From assembly GCF_001547525.1 (NCBI RefSeq), contig NZ_CM003769.1, positions 248,001-312,000 on the forward strand: a stretch of 64,000 bases of DNA, read 5' to 3'. The notes under the pieces are model-generated. The model was not told the DNA's origin. It saw only the letters and a list, made by a program, of their open reading frames with translations, and ran no database searches. A program made the translations under genes and the position numbers. Positions 27,921-40,094 of this stretch are shown one piece after another. Position 1 is the first letter of the stretch, and every line of letters begins with the position of its first letter. This stretch comes from Burkholderia anthina. Its GTDB lineage: Bacteria; Pseudomonadota; Gammaproteobacteria; Burkholderiales; Burkholderiaceae.

Positions 27921-28424
27921 ATGTCACGCGTTACCGATGTGCTCGTTTCGTTCGATACCGAAACCATCCTCAAAAAATATCCGAATCCCAGCAAGAATCC
28001 GGCGGCGCCAACGCTGATCGACTGGCACTATGTCTATATGGTGACCAACCAGGACAACGTCATCTCCGGCCAGGCGGGCGGCGAGCTCGACCTGAAGGCG
28101 CAGGTCGGCGACCTGATCCGCTGGCGCGAAACGAGCCTGTCGCTGGGCTTCGAGAACCAGGTGGTGTTCTACAAGTTCATCGGCAACGTCGGCAACGACC
28201 TGATCTCGACGCCGACGCCGCGCGTCGCGGAGGCGTCGATTCCGGTGCCGAACACCAGCAAGCCCGAAGTGCCGACGTGCCAGAAGGTCGCGAACTACTA
28301 TTGGTCGTCCGAATGCCTGAAGGTCGGCCGCGTGACCTACCATTTCCTGTTCCAGATCATCGATCGCAATTGCCAGAGCCAGGGCTGCTTCTCGTGGGAT
28401 CCGTTCATCTCGATCCATAACTGA
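27921..28424 (+). CDS. aidA: AidA, PixA/inclusion-body family protein
   Basis: 167 aa, ATG at 27921 behind GGGAG. No signal peptide or membrane segment. The sequence MSRVTDVLVSFDTETILKKY, LIDWHYVYMVTNQDNVISG, GDLIRWRETSLSLG and the ending GCFSWDPFISIHN is the AidA/PixA pattern. In Burkholderia cenocepacia AidA is controlled by quorum sensing and needed for killing of nematodes; its molecular role is unknown. A second family member follows 64 bp downstream, separated by a GC hairpin (28438-28456), so the two are probably cotranscribed with a step in expression. Confidence 0.88.
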   Translation: MSRVTDVLVSFDTETILKKYPNPSKNPAAPTLIDWHYVYMVTNQDNVISGQAGGELDLKAQVGDLIRWRETSLSLGFENQVVFYKFIGNVGNDLISTPTPRVAEASIPVPNTSKPEVPTCQKVANYYWSSECLKVGRVTYHFLFQIIDRNCQSQGCFSWDPFISIHN

Positions 28425-28488
28425 TCGCGGCACGCGGGCGGCCGCACGACGGCCGCTCGTCCCGCCCCTTGTTGCGGAGGACGTGCTC

Positions 28489-29028
28489 ATGTCTGGTGTA
28501 CGTTGCGATGCGCTCGCGATCGTCGACGCCGTCACGCTGCTGGCGGCCTATCCCGATGCGAGCCGGGACGCCGACGCGCCCACCGTGATCGACGGCCGGC
28601 ACATCTACGTGTTGAGCCCCGGCGACGCCGGGCAGGTCAGCCACCACGACAACCGGCTCTTTGCCGGCCTGTCGCCGGGCGACCGGCTTCATCTGCGCGA
28701 AACCGCGCTGGCGCTGCGCGCGGAGGTGACCGTGCTGTTCGTCCGGTTCGCGCTGAAGGACGCCGGCATCGTCACGCCGATCGAAGCGGAGATCCGCGAC
28801 GCCGCCACGGCGGTGCCGAACGGCGACGACCTGCTGCATCCGTCGTGCCAGCAGATGAAGGACCATTTCTGGCGCGGCGAGGTGCTGGCCCCGGGCGCCA
28901 CCACGTGCACGGCCGATTTCGCGGTGCTCGATCGCGACGGCGCCGTATCGGGCTATTTCCGCTGGGAAACGACGATCGAGATCGCCGGCAGCGGGCCGGA
29001 CACGAAACAGCCCGGCGCCACACCGTAG
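28489..29028 (+). CDS. second AidA/PixA-family protein
   Basis: 179 aa from the ATG at 28489, with GCGGAGG 8 nt upstream; GTG at 28483 in the same frame is too close to that site. Family features: CDALAIVDAVTLLAAYPDA, VIDGRHIYVLSPGDAGQ, GDRLHLRETALALRAE and SGYFRWETTIEIAG. It is more diverged than the first copy. Two adjacent AidA-type genes also occur in B. cenocepacia. Function unknown. Confidence 0.82.
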   Translation: MSGVRCDALAIVDAVTLLAAYPDASRDADAPTVIDGRHIYVLSPGDAGQVSHHDNRLFAGLSPGDRLHLRETALALRAEVTVLFVRFALKDAGIVTPIEAEIRDAATAVPNGDDLLHPSCQQMKDHFWRGEVLAPGATTCTADFAVLDRDGAVSGYFRWETTIEIAGSGPDTKQPGATP

Positions 29029-29119: not shown

Positions 29120-30061
29120 TCAGGTACGCGGCAACCCCGGCGGATTGGTCTGCGACCGGTCGATCGCCTCGGCATCCAGCCGCCAGTGGTCCAGCGCCTT
29201 CCGGTAGCTGCCGTTCGCGATCAGCGCATTGATCGCGAGCGTCAGCGGCTCGGCGAGGCCGCTGCCCTTGCGGGTCGTGATCGCGATATCCGCGGTGCGC
29301 GGCCAGCCGCCGCTGACGGTGCCGATCAGCTTTGCATCGCCGCGCAGCGACGCCTGGTACGCGAGCATCGAGTTCACGCTGAAGATCGTGTCGACCCGGC
29401 CCGACTGCAGCGCGACCCAGCGCTCGGCCGCATCCGCGTAATACTGGATCTCGACCGGCGCGAGGCCGCGCGCGACGTTCTGCCGGTTCCATTCGAGCAG
29501 GATCTTTTCCTGGTTCGTGCCCGAATCGGTCACGACGCGCAGCCCCGCGACATCCTTCGGTTCGCGGATCGCGGCAAGCTTGCTGCCGGTCTTCACGTAG
29601 AAGCCGAGCTGATCCTTCCGGTAGGTCGAGAAGTCGAACTTCTCCTTGCGCTGCTCGGTCACCGTCACGTTCGAGATCACCGCATCGACCTTGCCGGACT
29701 GCAGCGCGAGCGGCCAGTCGGCCCACGCGAGCGGCACGATCTTCAGCTTGCGGCCGATGCTGTCCGCGATCAGTTGCGCGAGATCGGGATCGAAGCCGAC
29801 CACCGTGCGCGCGTCGGTCGCATAGGTGCTGAGCGGCGGCAGGTTCGGCGCGATGCCGATCGTCAGCGTGTTCGCCTCGGCGAACCGGAAGCCGGCCGGC
29901 AGCGCCTGCTCGACCGCCGGATTCACCGCGCCGCGCTGCCGGGCCGGCTGCTCGGGACTCAAGTCGAACGACGCGGCGTGTACCGCGACGGCGTTCGCGG
30001 CGATCAGCGCGGCGGCCAGCACGCGGGCGAGGCGTGCAACGGGAAAAGCGTTTCTTCTCAT
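29120..30061 (-). CDS. periplasmic amino-acid-type substrate-binding protein (SBP family 3), no ABC partner nearby
   Basis: 313 aa from the ATG at 30061, chosen because MRRNAFPVARLARVLAAALI begins a Sec signal peptide cleaved after AVHA; a longer start at 30124 would bury it. Bacterial SBP family 3: TLTIGIAPNLPPLSTYATD, GFDPDLAQLIADSIGRKLKI, GKVDAVISNVTVTEQRKEKF and DSGTNQEKILLEW. It normally delivers a polar amino acid or similar compound to an ABC permease. No permease or ATPase gene is adjacent. It follows the 2OG oxygenase gene on the same strand by 96 bp, so it may be cotranscribed with it. Confidence 0.85.
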   Translation of the reverse strand: MRRNAFPVARLARVLAAALIAANAVAVHAASFDLSPEQPARQRGAVNPAVEQALPAGFRFAEANTLTIGIAPNLPPLSTYATDARTVVGFDPDLAQLIADSIGRKLKIVPLAWADWPLALQSGKVDAVISNVTVTEQRKEKFDFSTYRKDQLGFYVKTGSKLAAIREPKDVAGLRVVTDSGTNQEKILLEWNRQNVARGLAPVEIQYYADAAERWVALQSGRVDTIFSVNSMLAYQASLRGDAKLIGTVSGGWPRTADIAITTRKGSGLAEPLTLAINALIANGSYRKALDHWRLDAEAIDRSQTNPPGLPRT

Positions 30062-30157
30062 GTCTTGTGGAATCCTGTTTTTATTCGGGGATGCGCGAAG
30101 CGGGCGCGGGCAGCGGGCCGGCAACGTCCGACGCCAGTCGCTGCCCCGCCGGCTCGG

Positions 30158-31279
30158 TCACGCAGGCGTCGCGTCCAGTTCGACCACGGCCGCACGCCGC
30201 GGCACCGGCTGCACGACGGGCGACGGAGGCCTCGCGTGCGCCGACTCGCCCGCATACAGCGCCTTCGGGTCGAACACGCGTGCCTGCAGCGGCGTGAACG
30301 CACGGAAATTCCACAGGCTGCGCGCGACGAACACGCGCTGCACCCAGCGGAATGCGCGGTCGTTCTCGTCGTACTGCGGATCGAAGCGGTCGCGCGAATG
30401 CAGCGTGAAATGGTTGTTGATCAGCACCAGCTTGCCCGGTGACACCTGCACGCCGAACGAAACCTCGCGCACCGCGCGATACAGGTTGGCCAGCGCTTCC
30501 TGCGCGCGCGGGTTGACGGCCAGCACCATGTCCGGATAGAACGCGACCGTCACGCGCGGCGCGTCGAGCGGCCCCGACAGCACCGCGCTCAGGTCGGTGT
30601 TGTCGCGCGGCGTGGGCGTCGCGCCGCGCCACCGGTACGGCACGCGGATGATGTAGTGCTCGCCGTAGAGTTGCGCGATATCGTCCGGCGACAGCAGTTG
30701 CAGCGCGCGGCGCGCATCGGCGAGCCGCGTGTACGGGCCGCCGCCGGCCTCGCTGCGCACGCCGAGCAGCAGCAGCGCGAACGGCGACGTGTCGCCTTCC
30801 GGCATGTGCGCCTGCGCGGCGTTCTCGATATGGAAGTCGAGCTCGACCTCGGAGCCGAGGCCCGTGTAGTCGCGCGCGGTCGCCTTGTGCGGCGTCAGGT
30901 TGTTCACCAGCTCGCGCCCTTCGTGCGCGATCGAGTACGGCTCGCCGGCGAGCGTGCTCAACGCGACCAGCACGTTCTCGCTCAGCACGCCGGCCTTGAA
31001 CGAACGGCCGGTTTCCTCGAATCGCGGGCTGCCCGTCACGCCGTCGTCGATCGGCAGGTTGTCGATCTCGATCGAGCCGTGCGCGTCCGCCGTCGGCGCC
31101 TTCGCCCGGTCGAATGCGTCGACGATCCGGTCGGGAAACGCGTTGTAGGCCAGCTTGCGAACTGCGCTGATATAGCCTGCGCCGCCGGCCGGGTCGTAAC
31201 CCAGCGCGCCGAGCGTCGTGCGGATGTGAGCGGATTCCGCTGCCGTCAAAGCGATGCGTGCATCTGCGAGATAGGTCAT
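30158..31279 (-). CDS. clavaminate-synthase-like Fe(II)/2-oxoglutarate oxygenase, probable amino-acid hydroxylase
   Basis: 373 aa, MTYLADARIALTAAES start at 31279. The iron facial triad is of the clavaminate-synthase type: His150-x-Glu152 in LDFHIENAAQAH and a distal His294 in NNHFTLHSRDRF; Arg308, 14 residues later, fits the 2-oxoglutarate-binding Arg. In this subfamily (CAS, VioC, AsnO, lysine hydroxylases) the HxE form is common and the substrates are free or tethered amino acids. A regiospecific amino-acid hydroxylase is therefore the best call, with the substrate unknown. The amino-acid-type binding protein downstream and the ATP-grasp ligases across the divergent spacer support an amino-acid-derived product. 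Confidence 0.82.
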   Translation of the reverse strand: MTYLADARIALTAAESAHIRTTLGALGYDPAGGAGYISAVRKLAYNAFPDRIVDAFDRAKAPTADAHGSIEIDNLPIDDGVTGSPRFEETGRSFKAGVLSENVLVALSTLAGEPYSIAHEGRELVNNLTPHKATARDYTGLGSEVELDFHIENAAQAHMPEGDTSPFALLLLGVRSEAGGGPYTRLADARRALQLLSPDDIAQLYGEHYIIRVPYRWRGATPTPRDNTDLSAVLSGPLDAPRVTVAFYPDMVLAVNPRAQEALANLYRAVREVSFGVQVSPGKLVLINNHFTLHSRDRFDPQYDENDRAFRWVQRVFVARSLWNFRAFTPLQARVFDPKALYAGESAHARPPSPVVQPVPRRAAVVELDATPA

Positions 31280-31685
31280 AGGTCTCTCGTATAAAGATCT
31301 GGTTCGAAGAGCGGCATGGCATCGCCGCCGCGCGCCGCCGTCCTCGGGGCGAAGCGCTCGACAAGACTAGGAGACCGTCATTGCATTTCGAAATGATATT
31401 AATTCGATTGCAAACAAAAATTATCGATATAAGTTCAGCAATGCGGACGGAACCGGTTCACCGCGTTTTGCGCCGACCCTTAACACGAATACTTGTTAAA
31501 AAATCGTTGCTTATTATTTGTATTCGCCAATGGGTCGATGCTAGTTTTCTGTCGGATTCGACGCCGCGGCCGGCGCCCGACGGGCAGCCGGCTCCCTTGA
31601 TGCGCCATACGGAAACCCGCCAGATGAATCGATACCGCCTGCCGTCCCGCACCATCCACACGTCCCGCATGCACCGGGGGCCGCG
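31280..31685. other. AT-rich divergent promoter region between oxygenase and exporter genes
   Basis: 406 bp without a supportable gene, clearly lower in GC (31380-31550). It holds the promoters for the minus-strand oxygenase/binding-protein pair and the plus-strand MFS/ATP-grasp genes. Possible -10-like stretches include GATATTAATT (about 31396) and TTATTATTTG (about 31511). I see no confident operator; a loose Fur-like match near 31388-31406 is too weak to call. Confidence 0.5.
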
Positions 31686-33134
31686 ATGAGCGACCGTGCC
31701 CCGGCGCTCGACCGCGTCGACCGCGCGCTGACCGCCACCGCCACCACCGGTTCGCCGCGCACGTCGCTGCGCGCCATCTTCCCGACCGTCGCGGCCGCGA
31801 GCCTCGGCTTCGCGATCGTCCAGCTCGACGTGACCGTCGTCAACGTCGCGATTCCGAGCCTCGGCCATGCGTTCGGATCGAGCGTCCACGGGCTGCAGTG
31901 GATCGTCGATGCTTACACGCTGTCGTTCGCCGCGCTGCTGCTGACGTCGGGCACGCTGGCCGACCGCTTCGGCAGCCGCCGCCTGTTCGCGTACGGCCTT
32001 GCGCTGTTCCTGCTCGCGTCGCTCGGCTGCGCGCTCGCGCCGTCGCTGGCGGCGCTGGTCGCCGCGCGGGTCGCGCAAGGCGTCGGCGCCGCGATGATCC
32101 TGCCCACGTCGCTCGCGCTCATCACGCATGCGTGCGCCGACGATGCCGCCGCGCGCGTGAAAGCCGTCGCGTGGTGGAGCGCGACGGGCGGCGCGATCAG
32201 CGCGGCCGGGCCGACGCTTGGCGGCGTGCTGATCGATTCGCTCGGCTGGCGCGCGATCTTCTTCATCAACCTGCCGATCTGCGCGTTCGGGCTGTGGCTC
32301 ACGCTGCGCCACGTGCAGGATTCGGCCGCCGCGCGCACGCGGCTGTTCGATCCGGCCGGGCAGATCGTCGCGGTGCTCCTGCTCGGGCTGCTGACGGGCG
32401 GCATCATCCGGGCCGGGGCGCACGGGATCGGCGACCCTTACGCGGCCGGCGCGTTGATCGCGACGGTCGCGCTCGGCGCGTCGTTCATCGCGATCGAACG
32501 GCGCGTGGCCGCGCCGATGCTGCAACTCGCGTTCTTCCGGATCGCGCGCGTGCCGGGCGTGCTCGCAATCGGCGCGATCACGAATGCGGCGTTCTACGGG
32601 CTGATCTTCTCGCTCAGCCTCTATTTCCAGAACGCGCGCGGCTTCACGGCAACCGAATCGGGGCTCGCGCTCGCGCCGCTCACGATCATCATGCTCGCCA
32701 ACATCGCGAGCGCGCGGCTCGCGGTCCGCCACGGATTCCGCGCGACCGTCATCGTCGGCCTCGCCGTGTCGCTCGCCGGCTACGTGTGGCTGTGGCGGAC
32801 GCTCGCCGCGCACACGCCGTACGCGCTGCTGGCGCCCGGGCTCGTGGCGATGGCGATCGGCGGCGGCATCGCGATTCCCGCTCTGACGTCGACGATGCTC
32901 GGCAGCGTCGAGGCCGGCCGCTCGGGCACCGCGTCCGCGATCCTCAATACCGCGCGTCAGGTGGGCGCCGCGATCGGCGTCGCGGCGCTCGGCGCGCTGG
33001 TCGCCGGCCAGGGCGCGGCAATCGTGGCCGGCGCGGCGCGCGCGTTCGCCGTCGCGGCCGTGCTCGTCGCACTCTGCGTCGTGCTGGCCGTGCGCTGGCC
33101 TCGCGACGCCCGCGATACCGGCACGCGGGCCTGA
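31686..33134 (+). CDS. DHA2-type MFS exporter (EmrB/QacA family)
   Basis: 482 aa, ATG at 31686. About 14 membrane segments. DHA2 motifs are present: LDVTVVNVAIPSLGHAFG in helix 1, LADRFGSRRLFAYGLALF between helices 2 and 3, and RVAQGVGAAMILPTSLALI (motif C region). Family members export drugs or secondary products by proton antiport. It heads the plus-strand group with the ATP-grasp ligase 55 bp downstream, so export of the ligase product, or resistance to it, is the natural reading. Confidence 0.85.
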   Translation: MSDRAPALDRVDRALTATATTGSPRTSLRAIFPTVAAASLGFAIVQLDVTVVNVAIPSLGHAFGSSVHGLQWIVDAYTLSFAALLLTSGTLADRFGSRRLFAYGLALFLLASLGCALAPSLAALVAARVAQGVGAAMILPTSLALITHACADDAAARVKAVAWWSATGGAISAAGPTLGGVLIDSLGWRAIFFINLPICAFGLWLTLRHVQDSAAARTRLFDPAGQIVAVLLLGLLTGGIIRAGAHGIGDPYAAGALIATVALGASFIAIERRVAAPMLQLAFFRIARVPGVLAIGAITNAAFYGLIFSLSLYFQNARGFTATESGLALAPLTIIMLANIASARLAVRHGFRATVIVGLAVSLAGYVWLWRTLAAHTPYALLAPGLVAMAIGGGIAIPALTSTMLGSVEAGRSGTASAILNTARQVGAAIGVAALGALVAGQGAAIVAGAARAFAVAAVLVALCVVLAVRWPRDARDTGTRA

Positions 33135-33189
33135 GCACCTTGCCGCACGCACTCCTTCAACCGATTTTCCATCCGAGCGAGAGGAATCC

Positions 33190-34458
33190 ATGCAGCATCG
33201 CTTCATCGATACCGTCCTGATCGTCGACGGCGCGTCGACCGCCGCCTACCTGGCCCCCGCGTTTCGCGCATACGGCATCCGTTGCGCGCACGTGATCAGC
33301 GACCCCGACCTGCCGGCCATCTACCGCGACCAGTTCGTGCCGTCCGACTACATCCGGCAGGTCCAGCATCGCGGCGACATCGACGCGACGCTCGCGCAAC
33401 TGGGCGACCTGCGGATCGGCGCGGTGCTGCATGGCCTCGACGCGGCGCTCGAGCTGGCCGACACGCTGGCCGAGCGGCTCGACGTGCCGTATCGCAACCC
33501 GCTCGCCACCTCCGCCGCGCGACGCGACAAGTTCGCGATGAACGAACGCATTCGCCAGGCCGGGCTGCGCGCGCCGGCGCACTTCCACAGCACGTCGGTC
33601 GATGAAGCGCTCGATTGGGCGCGCGCGCAGCGCACGCTGCCGCTCGTCGTGAAGCCGGCGCGCAGCGCGGGCGTGGCCGGCGTGAAGATCTGCCGAACGC
33701 TCGAGCAGGTCGAGGCCGCCGCGCGCGACGTGCTGAACACCCGTTCGCTGTACAACCAGCCGAACGACGACATCGTGATCCAAAGCTATTCCGAGGGGCA
33801 GGAATACATCGTCGATTCGGTATCGTTCGAAGGCCGCCATCGCGTGGTCAGCCTGTGGGAAGTGCATCGCGACCGCACGCACGCGCCGCGGCTCGACAAG
33901 ATGCTGGTGCTGAACCATGCCGACCCGCGCTACGCACCGCTGCTCGACTACGCGGCCGACGTGCTCGATGCGCTGGACGTGCGCTTCGGGCCGACCCACC
34001 TCGAGCTGTTCGATACGGCCGACGGCCCGACCATCGTCGAGCTGAACGCGCGGTTGCACGGCAGTCTCGATCCGCGGCTGACGAGCGCGGTCAGCGGCGA
34101 GAATCACGTATCGGCCACCGTCGAAGCAGTGCTGCATCCGGAGCGGCTGTTCGGCGACGTCGCCGCGCCGACGGATTTTCGCGGGTACTGCGGTCACGTG
34201 CTGCTGCTGTCGTCGCGCAACGGCGTGCTGCGGCAGGATTTCACGTGGCAGGCGATCCAGGCGTTGCCGTCGTTCGTCGGGCTCAAGCAGTGGATCAAGG
34301 TCGGCGACACGCTGCGCGTGACCACCGACCTGCAAACGGCGCTCGGCACGGTCGGCCTGTACAGCCCGACCTTCGAACGGCTGCTCGAGGATTGCCGGCG
34401 GATTCGCGAAATCGAGGCCGATTTCTTCGCGGACGAAGGCGCGGTCGCGCCGGTCTAG
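33190..34458 (+). CDS. ATP-grasp ligase 1, probable amino-acid/peptide ligase
   Basis: 422 aa, ATG at 33190 after GAGAGGAA. N-terminal pre-ATP-grasp domain (1-105), then the ATP-grasp fold: Lys114 (RRDKFAMNERI), Lys155 in LPLVVKPARSAGVAGVK, IVIQSYSEGQEYIVDSVS, and metal ligands Glu272 (HLELF) and Glu284/Asn286 in TIVELNARLHGS. It resembles the carboxylate-amine ligases that include L-amino-acid ligases (BacD-like) and carnosine-synthase-like enzymes. These activate a carboxylate as acyl phosphate and join it to an amine. It carries no carrier-protein or biotin motif. Substrates unknown; neighbours suggest hydroxylated amino acids. Confidence 0.8.
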   Translation: MQHRFIDTVLIVDGASTAAYLAPAFRAYGIRCAHVISDPDLPAIYRDQFVPSDYIRQVQHRGDIDATLAQLGDLRIGAVLHGLDAALELADTLAERLDVPYRNPLATSAARRDKFAMNERIRQAGLRAPAHFHSTSVDEALDWARAQRTLPLVVKPARSAGVAGVKICRTLEQVEAAARDVLNTRSLYNQPNDDIVIQSYSEGQEYIVDSVSFEGRHRVVSLWEVHRDRTHAPRLDKMLVLNHADPRYAPLLDYAADVLDALDVRFGPTHLELFDTADGPTIVELNARLHGSLDPRLTSAVSGENHVSATVEAVLHPERLFGDVAAPTDFRGYCGHVLLLSSRNGVLRQDFTWQAIQALPSFVGLKQWIKVGDTLRVTTDLQTALGTVGLYSPTFERLLEDCRRIREIEADFFADEGAVAPV

Positions 34459-34476
34459 GGTCGCGGCGTGCCCGTG

Positions 34477-35352
34477 TCAGCGCGCGAGCAGCGCACCGGC
34501 CTGCCGGCCGAGCACCGCACGCAACGCGTCAAGTTCGGGCAGCGCGGGCGCTTCGTCGGGCGTGACGAGATAGGTCGTCACGCTGTCGAGATCGTCGAAC
34601 GCATGCGCGCGCAGTTCCTTGCGCGCCACGTGCTCGGTCGTGATCCGCTTCGGCAGGATCGCGACACCCATCCCGGCCGCCACGCAGCCGAGGATCGCGC
34701 CGAACGTGCCGAACGACGACACCGATTCGATCGCGACGCCGCGCGCCTTCAGCCAGTGCTCCGCGACCGCGCGGTACGGGCAGCCGTCGTGAAACGCGAG
34801 CAGGCGCACCGCGTTGTCGGCCAGCAGTTGCCGGCGCGTGACGGTCGCGGCGCTCACCAGCACCATGTCCTCCGCGAACGCGGGCTCGTAACGCAGCCCG
34901 GGCCGCACGACCGCGCGTGCGGTGAGCGCCGCGTCGATCCGGCCGCGCAGCAGCGCATCCGCCAGATCGGGCTCGCTGCCGATCTGCACCGCGAGGCCGA
35001 GCGCCGAGTCGCGCTCCTTCAGCGCGGCGGCCAGCGCAGGCAGCCGCGTGGCGGCCGTGCTTTCCATCGAGCCCAGCCGGAAGCGACGGGCAACCGGCGT
35101 TTCGCGCACCACCTGCGTCGCTTCGTCGACGAGACGCAGGATGCGGTCGCAATACGGCATCAGCCGGCGCCCGGCATCGTTCAACACCAGCCGCTTGCCA
35201 TGGCGGTCGAACAGCGGTGCGTCGAGCGATTCCTCGAGCTGACGCAGCCGCGCCGTGACGTTCGACTGCGTGCAGCCGAGCCGTTCGGCCGCGCGCAACG
35301 CGCTGCCTTCCTGCACGACGGCCCGGAAAGTTTCGAGCAATGGGATGTTCAT
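34477..35352 (-). CDS. LysR-family regulator within the ATP-grasp cluster
   Basis: 291 aa. N-terminal winged helix-turn-helix (LLETFRAVVQEGSALRAAER, then LGCTQSNVTARLRQLEESL) and LysR substrate-binding domain (RFRLGSMESTAATRLPALA, GVAILPKRITTEHVA). It points left between ATP-grasp 1 and the permease gene, so it is divergent from the permease/ATP-grasp 2 pair. The 160-bp spacer carries TCAGTTT twice (35354 and 35375), 21 bp apart. Control of the surrounding genes is inferred from position. Confidence 0.87.
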   Translation of the reverse strand: MNIPLLETFRAVVQEGSALRAAERLGCTQSNVTARLRQLEESLDAPLFDRHGKRLVLNDAGRRLMPYCDRILRLVDEATQVVRETPVARRFRLGSMESTAATRLPALAAALKERDSALGLAVQIGSEPDLADALLRGRIDAALTARAVVRPGLRYEPAFAEDMVLVSAATVTRRQLLADNAVRLLAFHDGCPYRAVAEHWLKARGVAIESVSSFGTFGAILGCVAAGMGVAILPKRITTEHVARKELRAHAFDDLDSVTTYLVTPDEAPALPELDALRAVLGRQAGALLAR

Positions 35353-35514
35353 ATCAGTTTCTCTTGTTACCGATTCAGTTTATATCATTTTACTTCGCCC
35401 ACCATCCGGATTAGCCTAGCGCGTATTCCGTGCCGGCCCCTTCCGAGGAATCCGCATGCCATTCGCTGCCTGCTTCGGCTTCACTCCCGTTCGCCGCCGG
35501 CCCGAGGTTCGTCC

Positions 35515-36459
35515 GTGCGCGCACTGATCGCCGCGCTGGTGCGGCGCGGCCCGACCGTGCTCGCGTGCGGCGTCGGCCTCGGGCTGCTGGTGCCGCCGCT
35601 CGCGGCGCTCGCGCGGCCGCTGATGCCCGTTACCGTGTTCCTGTTCGTGCTCGGCACGCTGCTGCGCGTCGAGCCGAGCGCCGTGCGCGCGGTCGCGCGG
35701 CGCCCCGCCGTGTCGCTGCTGCTGCCCGCGCTGACGATGATCGCGTGCCCGATCGCGCTCGGCGTCGCCGCGCGGCTCGCGGGTTTGCCGTACGACTGGG
35801 TCGTCGCGCTGGTGATCGCGTACTGCGCGCCGCCGTCGAGCGGCACGTCGACGATTGCGCGCATGCTGTCGCTCGACGCCAGTGTCGCGCTCGTCGCGAC
35901 CCTCGCGTCGATGGTGTTCGTACCGCTGACCGCGCCGCTGCTGACGGCCTGGTTCAGCCACGACGCCGCGGTGTCGATCTCGCCGTCGAGCCTCGCGCTG
36001 CGGCTCGCGCTGCTGATCGGCAGCGCCGAGGGCGTCGCGCTGCTCGTGCGGCGCCTTGCCGGCGCGCGGCTCGCGCGCCATGCGACGCCGATCGACGCGA
36101 CCGTCGTCGTCGCGCTGCTGATCTTCGCGCTCGGCACGATGGCCGGCATGCAGCAGTCGATCATCGACGCACCGCACCGCGCACTGGCCGCGATCGCGCT
36201 CGCATTCGCCGTCAACGCCGGTTTCCAGATCGTCGCGTACGGGCTCACGCCCGGCGATGTCCGCACGCGCCTGAACGTCGCACTGATCGTCGCCAATCGC
36301 AACGTCGGGCTGATGTGGGCCGCGCTCGGACTGGCCGCCACGCCGACCATGGCGCTCGTGTTCGCGTGCGCGCAGTTGCCGATCTATACGTTGCCGCGCG
36401 TCGTTCAGCATCTGCTGCCGCGCCTCGAAGCGCAGCGCCTGCGCCGGCGCGCACGCTAG
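35515..36459 (+). CDS. BASS-type (bile acid:sodium symporter-like) permease
   Basis: 314 aa from the GTG at 35515, preceded by CGAGG; no in-frame ATG gives a better start, so the exact start is less sure. About nine to ten hydrophobic segments. The family signature region reads LVIAYCAPPSSGTSTIARML followed by SLDASVALVATLASMVFV, close to BASS proteins. These move organic anions such as bile acids, pantoate or keto acids with sodium. Its place 28 bp before ATP-grasp 2 suggests import of a precursor or export of the product. Confidence 0.65.
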   Translation: MRALIAALVRRGPTVLACGVGLGLLVPPLAALARPLMPVTVFLFVLGTLLRVEPSAVRAVARRPAVSLLLPALTMIACPIALGVAARLAGLPYDWVVALVIAYCAPPSSGTSTIARMLSLDASVALVATLASMVFVPLTAPLLTAWFSHDAAVSISPSSLALRLALLIGSAEGVALLVRRLAGARLARHATPIDATVVVALLIFALGTMAGMQQSIIDAPHRALAAIALAFAVNAGFQIVAYGLTPGDVRTRLNVALIVANRNVGLMWAALGLAATPTMALVFACAQLPIYTLPRVVQHLLPRLEAQRLRRRAR

Positions 36460-36487
36460 CTCTCCCGTCCTCGATCAAGGATTCACC

Positions 36488-37738
36488 ATGAAGCGACTCA
36501 TCGTGATCGGCGCACGCGCCACCGGCAGCAGCGTCGCGCTGGTGCGCGCCGCCCTCGCGCGCCAGGTGGCCGTGACCGTCATCACCGCGCCCGGCCATCG
36601 TCTCGACGGCGTGTTTCCCGCGGGCGTCGAGACGGTCAACCTCGCGCCCGACGCCGACCAGCTCGCCGGTTGGCTGCGCGCGCGCTTTCCGGACGAACTC
36701 GACACGCTGCGCGTGACGACCGCGCACGACACCTATGCGCGCACCGCCGCGTGGGTCGCCGATGCGCTCGGGCTGCCCGGCCCCGATGCGCGGCACGTCG
36801 CGCACGCGGTGTCGAAGTCGAACCAGAAGGCGTTGCTCGCCGCGCACGGCATCCCGGCCGCGCAGTTCGTGTCGGGTACGCTGGCCGCGCCGGCGGCGCT
36901 CGCGGCGGCCGCCGCCCCATTGCGCTTTCCGGTCGTCGTCAAGCCGTCGGAAGGCTCCGCGAGCGACGGCGTGCGCCGCTGCGAGGACATCGCCGCCGTG
37001 CGCGCGCAGCTCGATGCGCTCGCCGCCGTGCAGGCCGATGCACGATCGCTTGCGACCGAGCGGATCGTCATCGAGGAATTCCTGGAGGGCAGCGAATACT
37101 GCGTCGAGTATTTCGACGGCCGCTACGTCGGCGCGCTGCGCAAGCTCAAGCGGCATGGCGCGGGTTTTCTCGAACGCGGGTATACGTCCGAACTCGATCT
37201 CGACGCCAACACGCTGCGCGCGCTGATCGACGTCGGCACGCGCGCGACCGCCGCCGCCGGGCTCACGTGGGGGCCCGTGCATCTCGACTGCATCGTGCAC
37301 GACGGCGTGCCGCACGTGATCGAACTGAATCCACGCATCGCGGGCAGCTTCATCTGCGACATCGTGCGCGACGGCTACGGCTTCAACGTGGTCGAAGCAT
37401 TGCTCGACAGGCTCGACGGAAAAACGTTGACGATTCCCGAGCTGTTCGAGCCGCACGCGTATGCGCGCGCCGAATTCCTGCTCGACAGCGATCCCCGTGC
37501 GTGGCGCTTCGCGCAGGCCGGCGAGATCGACGACGGGGCGGTAAGGATCAGCTACGGGCCGCAAGTGCTGCCCGATCGCGAACGGCGCGCGTTTCTTTAT
37601 GTGCGGGTCAAGGTGCCGGCTGTGCACGGTTCGGCGCGCGACGCCGGTTGTACGGCCGGGCGTGGCGATGTCGCGCAGCCTGCGCGCATCCCCGACTCCT
37701 CTGCCTACCCGACGCTACCGGCCGGAGAAGTGCCTTGA
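36488..37738 (+). CDS. ATP-grasp ligase 2
   Basis: 416 aa, ATG at 36488 after CAAGGA. N-terminal Rossmann-like domain (RLIVIGARATGSSVALVRAA), ATP-grasp domain with Lys114 (SNQKALLAAHGI), Lys152 in FPVVVKPSEGSASDGV, IVIEEFLEGSEYCVEYF and metal ligands Glu279/Asn281 in VIELNPRIAGSF. The C-terminal 100 residues form a lid or substrate domain ending in a Pro-rich tail. Same broad family as ATP-grasp 1 (both about 420 aa) but little sequence shared outside the fold, so the two probably join different substrates in sequence. No known pathway recognised. Confidence 0.8.
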   Translation: MKRLIVIGARATGSSVALVRAALARQVAVTVITAPGHRLDGVFPAGVETVNLAPDADQLAGWLRARFPDELDTLRVTTAHDTYARTAAWVADALGLPGPDARHVAHAVSKSNQKALLAAHGIPAAQFVSGTLAAPAALAAAAAPLRFPVVVKPSEGSASDGVRRCEDIAAVRAQLDALAAVQADARSLATERIVIEEFLEGSEYCVEYFDGRYVGALRKLKRHGAGFLERGYTSELDLDANTLRALIDVGTRATAAAGLTWGPVHLDCIVHDGVPHVIELNPRIAGSFICDIVRDGYGFNVVEALLDRLDGKTLTIPELFEPHAYARAEFLLDSDPRAWRFAQAGEIDDGAVRISYGPQVLPDRERRAFLYVRVKVPAVHGSARDAGCTAGRGDVAQPARIPDSSAYPTLPAGEVP

Positions 37739-37908: not shown

Positions 37909-39105
37909 CTACCGGGTCAGCCGCACTTCGGGTGAGCGCGGTCTGCCTGCGCTGGCGGGAGGCATCCCGCGCCAGAAGAAAAACACGAGCGCGCCTGCGA
38001 GCGCCTGTGCACCGACGACGAATGCGACGCAGCCCACCCAGCCCCAGCGATTCCACGCGGGAACGGGCAGGACTGAGCCGAGACTCCCGCCGAAGTAATA
38101 GAAGGAAAGGTAAATGCCGATCGCCGTCGATCTTGCACCCCGCGCCACCCGCGAGATGAACGCGTTGGCCGACGCCTGCTCGACGAACACCGCGGTGGAA
38201 CTGAGCGCGAGGCCGGCCAGGATCGCGATGACGCTGCTCGACAGTGTCAGCAATGCACCGACGATCGCGAGCCCGGTCGCCGCAAGGGCGAGATCGCGCG
38301 GGCCGCGTTGCGCCGCGACGCGGCCCGCGAGCGGCGTGACGATGACCGCGACGAGAAATACCGCATAGATCGCACCGATCTCGACCGTATCGAAGCCAAA
38401 TGGCGCACGCGCCAGCCGCAGTCCGACGAAGGTGAACGTCGCGACCTGCGACGCGAGCACGCATGCGCCGACCAGGAACGACGCGAGCAGCGGGCCGCGC
38501 GTCAAGAGCGTCCAGCGAGATGCCGACGCACCTTCGTCGTCCGGACGCGCGGCGCCGGCGGCCGGCAGGCACGCATGGATCGCGAGGCCCGTTGCCAGAC
38601 ACAGGAACGCGATGACGTCGAGCGCGTGACGCCAGCCGAACGCGGACGTCAGGCTATTCGTGACGAAACGCCCGGCGAATCCGCCGAGTGTCGTGCCGGC
38701 GACGAAGAACGCACTGACCTCCGTCGCCGCGTCGTGGCTGAAGACCTCGCCGATGCACGCAATCGAGATCGCGAAGATGAACGGCATCAGCACGCCCGCG
38801 GCAAAGCGGGCGGCGAGGAACGATGAAAAGCTCGCCGCGTGCGCAGACCAGAGAACGGGAAGCGCACACGCGACGGCGGCGCACGAAATGACCGTTCGGC
38901 GATCGAAGCGGGCGGCCAGCGCGCCGACGAACGGAGCGATAATGGCGACCGCCAAGGTGGTGGCGCTGACGCCCTGGCCGGCTTGTTCCGGGCTCACGTC
39001 AAATGCCGCGGCAAGTTCGTGCAGGATGCCCTGAGTCGAATAAAGATTGAGAAAAGCCGCAAACCCGCACAGGAAAAATGCGGATCGAATGGTTCTGTTG
39101 CCCAC
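37909..39105 (-). CDS. MFS transporter (arabinose-efflux/YnfM-like)
   Basis: 398 aa from the GTG at 39105 (VGNRTIRSAFFLCGFAAFLN), which has CAGGG upstream; an ATG at 39198 would reach to the start of the divergent LysR gene and add a charged non-membrane stretch, so it is rejected. Twelve hydrophobic segments; LAARFDRRTVISCAAVACAL is motif A, and APFVGAL precedes it. Close in layout to drug/sugar efflux permeases of the YnfM/NepI kind. Divergent from the LysR at 39201 with about 95 bp between, so likely its target. Substrate unknown. Confidence 0.78.
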   Translation of the reverse strand: MGNRTIRSAFFLCGFAAFLNLYSTQGILHELAAAFDVSPEQAGQGVSATTLAVAIIAPFVGALAARFDRRTVISCAAVACALPVLWSAHAASFSSFLAARFAAGVLMPFIFAISIACIGEVFSHDAATEVSAFFVAGTTLGGFAGRFVTNSLTSAFGWRHALDVIAFLCLATGLAIHACLPAAGAARPDDEGASASRWTLLTRGPLLASFLVGACVLASQVATFTFVGLRLARAPFGFDTVEIGAIYAVFLVAVIVTPLAGRVAAQRGPRDLALAATGLAIVGALLTLSSSVIAILAGLALSSTAVFVEQASANAFISRVARGARSTAIGIYLSFYYFGGSLGSVLPVPAWNRWGWVGCVAFVVGAQALAGALVFFFWRGMPPASAGRPRSPEVRLTR

Positions 39106-39200
39106 TGGTGACGCCCTGTCTGGTTTGTGTGACAGTCTGACGAGTGGGCGACACGCGCGCCAATACTGTTTTCGTGGCCATTGATACCGAAACGACAAAA

Positions 39201-40094
39201 ATGCTCGACCTACGCCGCCTCCGCTATTTCGTGACCGTCGCCGACGAATTGCACTTCGGACGCGCGGCGTTGCGTTTGCGTATTGCCCAGCCGCCTTTGA
39301 CGCGCCATATCGCCGCGCTGGAAACCGACCTCGGTATCCGGCTGTTCGAACGATCGACGCGCGCGGTCCAGCTCACGCCGGCAGGCGCGCTGTTTCTCGA
39401 ACACGCGAGGAGCGTCATTCATGCCGTCGACGAGGCGGAGGCAACGGCGCGCAAGATGGCGCAAGGCATGGTCGGTCGCGTCGTGATCGGCTATGCGAGC
39501 TCCATTCCGATGTCCGACGCGTTTTCGGACATCATCCGCAATGCAAGCCGCAGCATGCCGGAAGTGGAGTTGGCGTTTCGGGAAGTATCGACCGCGAGTC
39601 AACGCCAGCAGATCGCCGCCGGCACGATGGACGTCGGATTCGGTTGGGCCGCGGCAAAGACGTCGGAAGCGTGCATCGGGTCCCTCGTCGTGTCGCGCGA
39701 GCCGCTCGTCGCCGCGGTTCCCGCCCAGAGTCGATACGCGGGCAAGGCGACGATCGAGTTCCGTGAACTCGTCAACGAGAACTTCGTCACGTTCCCCGCG
39801 GGCTACGGTTCCGCGCTGAACGCGGCGCTCGACGATCTGTGCGCCCGCGAGGGCGTTGCGCCGCGGATCGGGCCTACCGCGTCGCAGATCACGACGCTGG
39901 TGTCGCTGGTGGCAGCGGAACGCGGCGTCGCCATCGTGCCCAGCTTCACGTCGACGTTGCAACGCTCGGGTGTCGCTTACGTGCCGCTGGCGACGCCGCA
40001 TGTTCTCGAATTGGTCGTCACGTGGTCCGAACCGTTTTCGTCAACCTGCGTCGAGCAGTTCATCGAGTTCGCGAGGTCGGTCGCAGCCGGCTAG
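39201..40094 (+). CDS. LysR-family regulator (CatM/BenM-like branch)
   Basis: 297 aa from the ATG at 39201, so that it begins MLDLRRLRYFVTVADELHFG as in the CatM/BenM/CbnR branch; an upstream in-frame start adds 19 unconserved residues. The HTH continues AALRLRIAQPPLTRHIAALE and a substrate-binding domain follows, with GRVVIGYASSIPMSDAF at about residue 90. Divergent from the MFS gene, which it probably controls. Confidence 0.88.
   Translation: MLDLRRLRYFVTVADELHFGRAALRLRIAQPPLTRHIAALETDLGIRLFERSTRAVQLTPAGALFLEHARSVIHAVDEAEATARKMAQGMVGRVVIGYASSIPMSDAFSDIIRNASRSMPEVELAFREVSTASQRQQIAAGTMDVGFGWAAAKTSEACIGSLVVSREPLVAAVPAQSRYAGKATIEFRELVNENFVTFPAGYGSALNAALDDLCAREGVAPRIGPTASQITTLVSLVAAERGVAIVPSFTSTLQRSGVAYVPLATPHVLELVVTWSEPFSSTCVEQFIEFARSVAAG

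Follow-up and report, generated by a model that had tools for sequence, protein, structure and literature searches.

Organization of the locus

The locus described here occupies positions 29120..37738 of a 64-kb stretch of DNA from Burkholderia anthina (hereafter the window), which lies on a 963-kb contig (C2) of a host genome of 7.27 Mb in 4 contigs. It had been singled out in an initial annotation as a candidate biosynthetic locus, and all of the genes named there were recovered at their positions by Pfam and NCBIfam profile matches. The left operon, on the minus strand, consists of the oxygenase gene followed by the binding-protein gene, and the exporter and ligase 1 genes are read on the plus strand from the same divergent promoter. 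From a second divergent promoter, the LysR gene is read leftward (minus strand) and the permease and ligase 2 genes are read rightward (plus strand). The oxygenase gene and the open reading frame (ORF) of the binding protein are separated by 33 bases, or by approximately 96 if the likely ATG is taken. The features are as follows.

29120..30061, minus strand: binding protein (ORF 29120-30124, likely ATG at 30061), last gene of the oxygenase operon, with a signal-peptide-like N terminus; SBP_bac_3, 95.6 bits against a cut-off of 26.4
30158..31279, minus strand: Fe(II)/2-oxoglutarate oxygenase, clavaminate-synthase-like; TauD PF02668, 40.3 against a cut-off of 27
31280..31685: oxygenase/exporter divergent promoter region, with a conserved AT-rich block at 31380-31445 and AAATGATATTAA at 31391-31402
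31686..33134, plus strand: DHA2-type exporter of the major facilitator superfamily (MFS); MFS_1, 161.9 bits
33190..34458, plus strand: ATP-grasp ligase 1, 422 amino acids, PRK07206 group, L-amino-acid-ligase-like
34477..35352, minus strand: LysR-type regulator, assigned by profile matches
35353..35502: LysR/permease divergent promoter region, with AAATGATATAAA at 35379-35390 on the minus strand
Inside ORF 34468-36459, start near 35503 but not fixed, plus strand: permease, weakly SBF/BASS- or AEC-like
36488..37738, plus strand: ATP-grasp ligase 2, 416 amino acids, BL00235/BacD-type, L-amino-acid-ligase-like

In agreement with the initial annotation, no condensation, adenylation, ketosynthase or carrier domain of a nonribosomal peptide synthetase (NRPS) or polyketide synthase (PKS) was present in the Pfam matches of the 10 proteins encoded between 27921 and 39198, and no siderophore domain was among the matches listed for them.

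The oxygenase and the two ligases

The description of the oxygenase as a clavaminate-synthase-like enzyme with an HxE triad was borne out, as the TauD match exceeds its cut-off and the residues E120, H150, E152, H294, R311 and R315 are invariant across 49 aligned oxygenase sequences. We take H150-x-E152...H294 to be the iron triad and R311 to be the 2-oxoglutarate-binding arginine, the roles being those generally assumed and the positions being assigned through the AsnO alignment. In the profile search, the best solved relative is the asparagine oxygenase AsnO (2og5, 100.7 bits), with clavaminate synthase and further amino-acid hydroxylases behind it. The AsnO residues E125 and R305, which presumably hold the amino-acid head group, are matched in the alignment by E120 and R315, and the position of AsnO N146 is occupied by Leu. 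None of the hydroxylase equivalog cut-offs was reached (GntD, 81.4 of 345; Cs1, 80.9 of 450; VioC, 57.6 of 418.6). Judged from these alignments, the oxygenase is a probable amino-acid hydroxylase.

Both ligases score above the ATP-grasp_4 cut-off of 27 (41.8 and 63.2, respectively). They share little, as had been claimed: the two host proteins are alike only over approximately 185 residues, at 31% identity. An ExNxR...GS stretch, presumably the magnesium-binding and catalytic part of ATP-grasp enzymes, is present in both (VELNARLHGS in ligase 1 and IELNPRIAGS in ligase 2). Ligase 1 passes a single NCBIfam model, PRK07206 (hypothetical protein; 310.1 against a cut-off of 302); its best solved relative is the L-amino acid ligase 30vh (E 5e-50), and with a score of 206.7 against a cut-off of 840 it is a distant relative of the DdaF equivalog. 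Ligase 2 passes no NCBIfam model, and its profile matches 3vot/BL00235 (E 6.9e-43) and BacD (E 5.8e-29). The C-terminal domain of L-amino-acid ligases (PF18603) scored 20.9 with ligase 1, below the cut-off of 29.4, and gave no match with ligase 2. Membership in an unrelated ATP-grasp family of primary metabolism, which the initial annotation had weighed as the opposite outcome, was rejected: no NCBIfam equivalog cut-off was reached, Pfam returned only generic ATP-grasp, and the nearest solved relatives are L-amino acid ligases. Both ligases fall with this group, and amide-bond formation is the predicted reaction.

Co-inheritance across Burkholderia

Co-occurrence of the genes in other genomes had been set beforehand as a refuting test of the proposed locus. 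Among 65 Burkholderia genomes, the oxygenase (92-100% identity), ligase 1 (94-100%), ligase 2 (85-100%) and binding protein (87-100%) occur in an identical set of 24, here termed producers, and the closest named relative of the oxygenase, at 97%, is that of Burkholderia cenocepacia. The permease is present in 28 of the 65, namely, the 24 producers and the genomes G001, G018, G049 and G057. The median pairwise ratio of nonsynonymous to synonymous substitution rates (dN/dS) lies at 0.11-0.21 for each of the seven genes, indicating purifying selection; 17 of the 24 producer genomes were compared (the host, 13 named loci, L103, L104 and L106), L047 being without its right half. The loci L083, L084 and L105 were searched and omitted from dN/dS; L083 is from the genome of L047, and L105 is from that of L053.

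At E 1e-60, ligase 1 was found in 25 of the 398 genomes of the family sample, 23 in Burkholderia and two in other genera, and these two loci (L078 and L079) have the identities of the Paraburkholderia bryophila (L056) and Robbsia (L057) loci described below. The order-wide scan at the same threshold found ligase 1 in the host alone (1 of 399), and the phylum-wide scan for the oxygenase at E 1e-40 found 2 of 398, namely, the host and a relative at 39% that carries an inner stop codon.

In one genome, G022, this oxygenase family stands in another setting. Its oxygenase (72%) is adjoined by a LysR gene (55% to the cluster LysR) and a different MFS gene, in the order LysR-oxygenase-MFS (L080:8952-12342), and the locus has a GC content of 56% against 65% in its surroundings; G022 is without a ligase 1 match, and its ligase 2 match is weak only.

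Three further loci may be mentioned. In the Burkholderia lata genome (L083, G019), approximately 14 kb of other genes separate LysR and ligase 1. In B. arboris L048, ligase 1 is split over two frames near the 3' end, by a frameshift or a sequencing error. At G060:C22:7965-12971, two ATP-grasp genes stand approximately 3 kb apart, with 33% and 32% identity to ligase 1, and are possibly part of a different ligase cluster.

The core cassette in other genera

A core of oxygenase, exporter, ligase 1 and ligase 2 is also linked in four other genera, in rearranged form. In Paraburkholderia bryophila (79, 66, 72 and 47% identity in that order), the oxygenase stands divergent from exporter-ligase 2-ligase 1, and a permease (61-65%) lies by the core. 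In Robbsia andropogonis, the core genes are all on one strand (oxygenase 73, exporter 50, ligase 1 53 and ligase 2 49%). Linkage of the core was likewise found on plasmids from Pantoea alfalfae, P. agglomerans and Rahnella sikkimica, with identities in P. alfalfae of 66, 51, 52 and 53% for oxygenase, exporter, ligase 1 and ligase 2, respectively. The Pantoea/Rahnella plasmid cassette measures 8.94 kb, and holds 7 genes at 50.9% GC; three records match the P. alfalfae query at 92.7-100% identity. Its additional genes encode a third ligase (43% to ligase 2), a BioF/Kbl-like (oxoamine-synthase-like) pyridoxal-phosphate enzyme (PRK07505, 485 bits against a cut-off of 342) and an NtaA/DmoA-type flavin mononucleotide (FMN) monooxygenase (TIGR03860, 350 against a cut-off of 280), as expected of a biosynthetic cluster. 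No orthologue of the binding protein or LysR was found at the Paraburkholderia, Robbsia and Pantoea/Rahnella core loci, where the sole LysR match (25%) is in Pantoea.

In Robbsia, the exporter and ligase 1 resemble those of Pantoea (64 and 66%) more than those of Burkholderia (50 and 53%), and the Robbsia cassette has 53% GC within a neighbourhood of 60% GC; transfer between classes is therefore indicated, and the cluster appears to have spread horizontally. Because three different gene orders hold the same core, there is strong evidence that the four core proteins work together. It could be supposed that the genes are accidental neighbours on a variable replicon with unrelated roles, as LysR and the permease persist without the rest and the oxygenase stands alone elsewhere; however, chance grouping is excluded because the same 24 of 65 genomes hold four of the genes and because the core is linked, in differing orders, beyond Burkholderia. 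Accidental neighbourhood is refuted for the core and is very improbable for the locus at large. The cluster genes belong together as a unit of inheritance.

At megablast sensitivity, the Pantoea cassette was not found in the E. coli genomes of the collection. In Rahnella L063, ligase 1 is split over two frames near residue 83 (frameshift or sequencing error), and a Pantoea stewartii plasmid (L086:1143-3131) carries a distant oxygenase (31%) adjoining an aminoacyl-tRNA-ligase-like gene.

Transporters, binding protein and regulation

The exporter scores 197.9 with TIGR00711, below the cut-off of 230.2. For the permease, neither SBF (20.1 against a cut-off of 24.3) nor Mem_trans (21.0 against 25.7) reached its cut-off; a permease is thus in place as first described, but the BASS label given to it is weak, and its family assignment is unsure.

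The binding protein had been described as lacking a transporter partner of the ATP-binding cassette (ABC) type. This holds for the cluster itself, since no ABC permease or ATPase gene adjoins it, but not for the genome as a whole. Homologues of the binding protein at E 1e-60 are found in 61 of 65 Burkholderia genomes, and another contig of the host (L091:4794-13931) carries two paralogues (70% and 56%) on either side of genes for a fused permease-ATPase and an NtaA/DmoA-type FMN monooxygenase, next to an SsuA-type binding protein. Because these paralogues flank an ABC transporter, the cluster binding protein may use that transporter in trans. The Asp that we take to be the amino-binding residue is replaced by Val in 13 of 13 cluster orthologues; as a clue to the ligand, this replacement was rejected because the two chromosomal paralogues are also without the Asp, which makes it a trait of the subfamily.

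Among the matches listed for the LysR protein, the nearest is the putrescine-utilisation regulator PtrR (199.9 of 400 bits, below cut-off). The motif AAATGATATWAA occurs in two copies in the window, one in each divergent promoter (0.02 expected at one mismatch). It is kept in 17 of 17 aligned oxygenase/exporter promoters; in the LysR/permease promoter, its first 11 bases are kept in 19 of 19 aligned loci, including the remnant loci described below, and all 12 in 16 of 19, the last base differing in L045, L101 and L102. In a pairwise simulation, the best shared 12-mer was reached by 14% of simulated regions and the 25-mer by 5.5%. Because of the 14% figure, and because the motif was picked after inspection of the sequences, a common LysR operator in both promoters is put forward as a suggestion only.

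These features bear on a role in nutrient scavenging or detoxification, in which the binding protein and permease would import an amino-acid-like compound, the oxygenase would open it, the ligases would conjugate it (for example, by glutamylation), and the pump would remove the waste. That the binding protein is a copy of a genus-wide one, which stands with the ABC transporter, monooxygenase and SsuA-type protein, speaks for such a role, as do the below-cut-off resemblance of LysR to PtrR and the occurrence of the oxygenase without the ligases in G022 and in a Trinickia locus. However, the core loci of the other genera keep the pump and both ligases but have no orthologue of the binding protein or LysR, catabolism would not ordinarily call for two or three peptide-ligase-like enzymes, and no dehydrogenase, aminotransferase or lyase was among the matches listed for the Burkholderia unit. 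We consider scavenging or detoxification an unlikely function of the locus.

Boundaries of the cluster and its neighbours

On the right, MFS2 (37909-39198) and LysR2 (39144-40094) adjoin the cluster in no more than 2 of the 13 named loci and were rejected as members, so that the ends originally assigned to the locus proved right. On the left, two tandem PixA-family genes (27921-29028, approximately 30% identical to each other) end directly beside the cluster. Hydroxylated amino-acid conjugates might serve as a metallophore or cell signal, which would make the product a metal-chelating or signalling small molecule instead of an antimicrobial peptide. Beta-hydroxy amino acids chelate iron, a point in favour of such a product, but no TonB receptor or metal-uptake gene was among the matches listed for the 10 proteins scanned.

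In passages of published work, aidA is BCAS0293 with BCAS0292 downstream (PMC2753556, PMC3426421, PMC3502180). By their PixA family and these locus numbers, the two tandem genes are probably the quorum-controlled aidA/aidA' pair. They were rejected as cluster members, as they are linked in 8 of 13 named loci and also occur in G037, G049, G018 and G034, where the making genes are missing. That the cluster adjoins genes resembling this pair would suit a signal; on the other hand, those passages name no BCAS028x, 0290 or 0291 neighbour, if the cluster genes are so numbered. In our judgement, a metallophore or signal is an improbable product.

Remnant loci and the M14-type gene

The four genomes that keep the permease outside the producers (G001, G018, G049 and G057) gave no match to the oxygenase or to ligase 1, and only weak ones to ligase 2 (E 1e-5 or worse). 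Absence is less sure for G057, which is 82% complete in 1100 contigs; its permease stands at a contig end, its LysR is not readable, and it was omitted from the trees and dN/dS. The order in G049 and G018 is aidA'-binding-protein stub-LysR-permease, with an identical junction in both, and the stub is the decayed 3' end of the binding-protein gene, corresponding to 29120-29255 of the window at 74-77% nucleotide identity. In G001, LysR-permease is preceded by other DNA. LysR is retained in the remnant loci L094, L101 and L102.

In the tree of the flanking GT2 gene, in which two genomes were entered twice (L051/L114 and L058/L115), G001, G018 and G049 fall in a clade with producers (ultrafast bootstrap support, UFBoot, 89), and in the permease and LysR tree they again group with producers (UFBoot 97). 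The three remnants are not united as one clade in either tree, where the inner supports are only 9-76 (GT2) and 20-43 (permease and LysR) and the producer L104 is intermixed. Because of the stub, and because the trees nest three remnants among producers, loss of the making genes is the simplest history. Two other genomes show related states: G037, which nests among producers in the GT2 tree (UFBoot 99), has approximately 2 kb where the host has 11.2 kb, and G034 holds a 63-base trace of the binding protein.

A gene encoding an M14-type protein of 567 residues lies directly 3' of the permease in all four remnants and directly 3' of ligase 2 in three producers (G031, G058 and G061). The content first assigned to the cluster is thus correct for its seven genes, but three relatives add this peptidase-like gene. 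At E 1e-30, it occurs in 8 of 65 genomes, namely, the four remnants, the three producers and G047 (60%); its places include L094:6269-7972, L113, L114 and L115. In 7 orthologues, QHANE, HGYPAH and TE.PD are invariant, and we take HxxE, the later His and the catalytic Glu to be the motif of M14 zinc carboxypeptidases; relatives are annotated as M14 family metallopeptidases. In Azospirillum and Variovorax, neighbours of its relatives are annotated as the binding protein, permeases and ATPase of an ABC transporter, which, judged from the gene set, appears to be of the oligopeptide type. The permease and the M14-type gene together suggest a separable uptake-and-hydrolysis module.

Between remnants, dN/dS is 0.06-0.14 for the permease, 0.16-0.18 for LysR and 0.13-0.16 for the M14-type gene. 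If the loss was one event, as the junction common to G049 and G018 suggests, the kept trio has been under selection afterwards; if the losses were separate and recent, part of the constraint in the remnants predates them. Immunity or piracy would leave just such a hydrolysis arm once the making genes had gone; the main alternative is that the permease has a second, unrelated use. Tentatively, and with considerable doubt, it may be proposed that the cluster makes an undescribed secreted ligase-built peptide, that producer and non-producer species of Burkholderia have diverged around it, and that the non-producers lost the oxygenase, ligases and binding protein and keep LysR, the permease and the M14-type peptidase, as a module for immunity or peptide piracy that is fitted to the compound of the producers.

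Proposed pathway

Based on the results presented above, the locus is probably a cluster that makes a short peptide independently of NRPS and has spread horizontally. The computed results are co-inheritance, purifying selection, the invariance of catalytic residues, the ligase family and the disappearance of the making genes from genomes that keep the permease, the peptidase-like gene and, where readable, LysR; the chemistry, that is, the substrates, step order and product structure, is inferred, as are regulation by LysR, the direction of the permease and bioactivity. The clavaminate-synthase-like oxygenase would hydroxylate a free amino acid, and ligases 1 and 2, acting through acyl phosphates, would contribute one amide bond each to a di- or tripeptide that contains the hydroxylated residue and that the DHA2 pump would export. 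LysR would control both divergent promoters, and the permease would re-import the product or an amino acid derived from it. An M14-type peptidase, present in some species, would cleave the product; producers without this gene, the host included, would rely on export or target tolerance. The binding protein may pass the precursor or product to the chromosomal ABC transporter. The peptide or modified amino-acid product foreseen in the initial annotation accordingly gains support from co-occurrence and from the placement of the ligases, the chemistry itself staying conjectural.

Several points weigh against this pathway and its peptidase module. The substrates of the oxygenase and ligases cannot be read from the sequence. 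The oxygenase has other uses, because homologues (71-72%) occur without these ligases in G022 and in a 21-kb locus of Trinickia soli. The M14 domain model PF00246 scored 18.5 with the L094 protein, short of the cut-off of 21.6, and gave no match with the L102 protein. At E 1e-30, the M14-type gene has no match in 21 of 24 producers, the host among them, and none was found for it in the Paraburkholderia, Robbsia and Pantoea loci.

Relation to known systems and significance

Taken as a whole, the unit meets no known cluster family. The dapdiamide cluster of Pantoea agglomerans is alike in making a short peptide with an ATP-grasp ligase, of which ligase 1 is a distant relative; unlike it, the present locus stays below the DdaF cut-off, gave no other dapdiamide model among the matches listed for the 10 proteins, and combines an oxygenase of the clavaminate-synthase/AsnO kind with two divergent ligases. 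The bacilysin system is alike in its ligase, as ligase 2 has profile matches to BacD and BL00235, but here there are two ligases and a hydroxylase, in another phylum, and the anticapsin genes were not seen in the unit. The tabtoxin cluster encodes a clavaminate-synthase-like enzyme and ATP-grasp ligases. Set beside it by description, our locus is alike in these parts and in the exporter, whereas no beta-lactam-synthetase-like or DapD-like gene was among the matches listed for the unit. AsnO, VioC and clavaminate synthase belong to the same superfamily as the oxygenase and have HxE...H and the Arg, but the GntD, Cs1 and VioC models are not reached, and no NRPS partner is in the unit.

The presence of a related cassette on Pantoea plasmids calls for comparison with the Pantoea antibiotic clusters, 12 of which are surveyed in PMC11350110. 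As described there, pantocin B has 35% GC and 13 ORFs and PNP-3 has 8.5 kb and 8 genes, both in Pantoea only, whereas the plasmid cassette (8.9 kb, 7 genes, 50.9% GC) is also in Rahnella. Judged from these text descriptions, the cassette is unlikely to be identical with one of the 12. No published description of this gene set was found in the open-access literature, a scope that leaves out most subscription journals and preprints. What is known is a short peptide built by ligases; what is new, so far as tested, is that a clavaminate-synthase-like hydroxylase and two divergent ligases are combined with a peptidase module separable from them.

In general, clusters without NRPS or PKS genes are easily missed by genome mining. 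The present cluster is a small one; it is common within the Burkholderia cepacia complex and occurs also in plant-associated relatives. From its remnant loci, candidate genes for immunity or uptake can be named, which may give a handle on the role of the product between bacteria.

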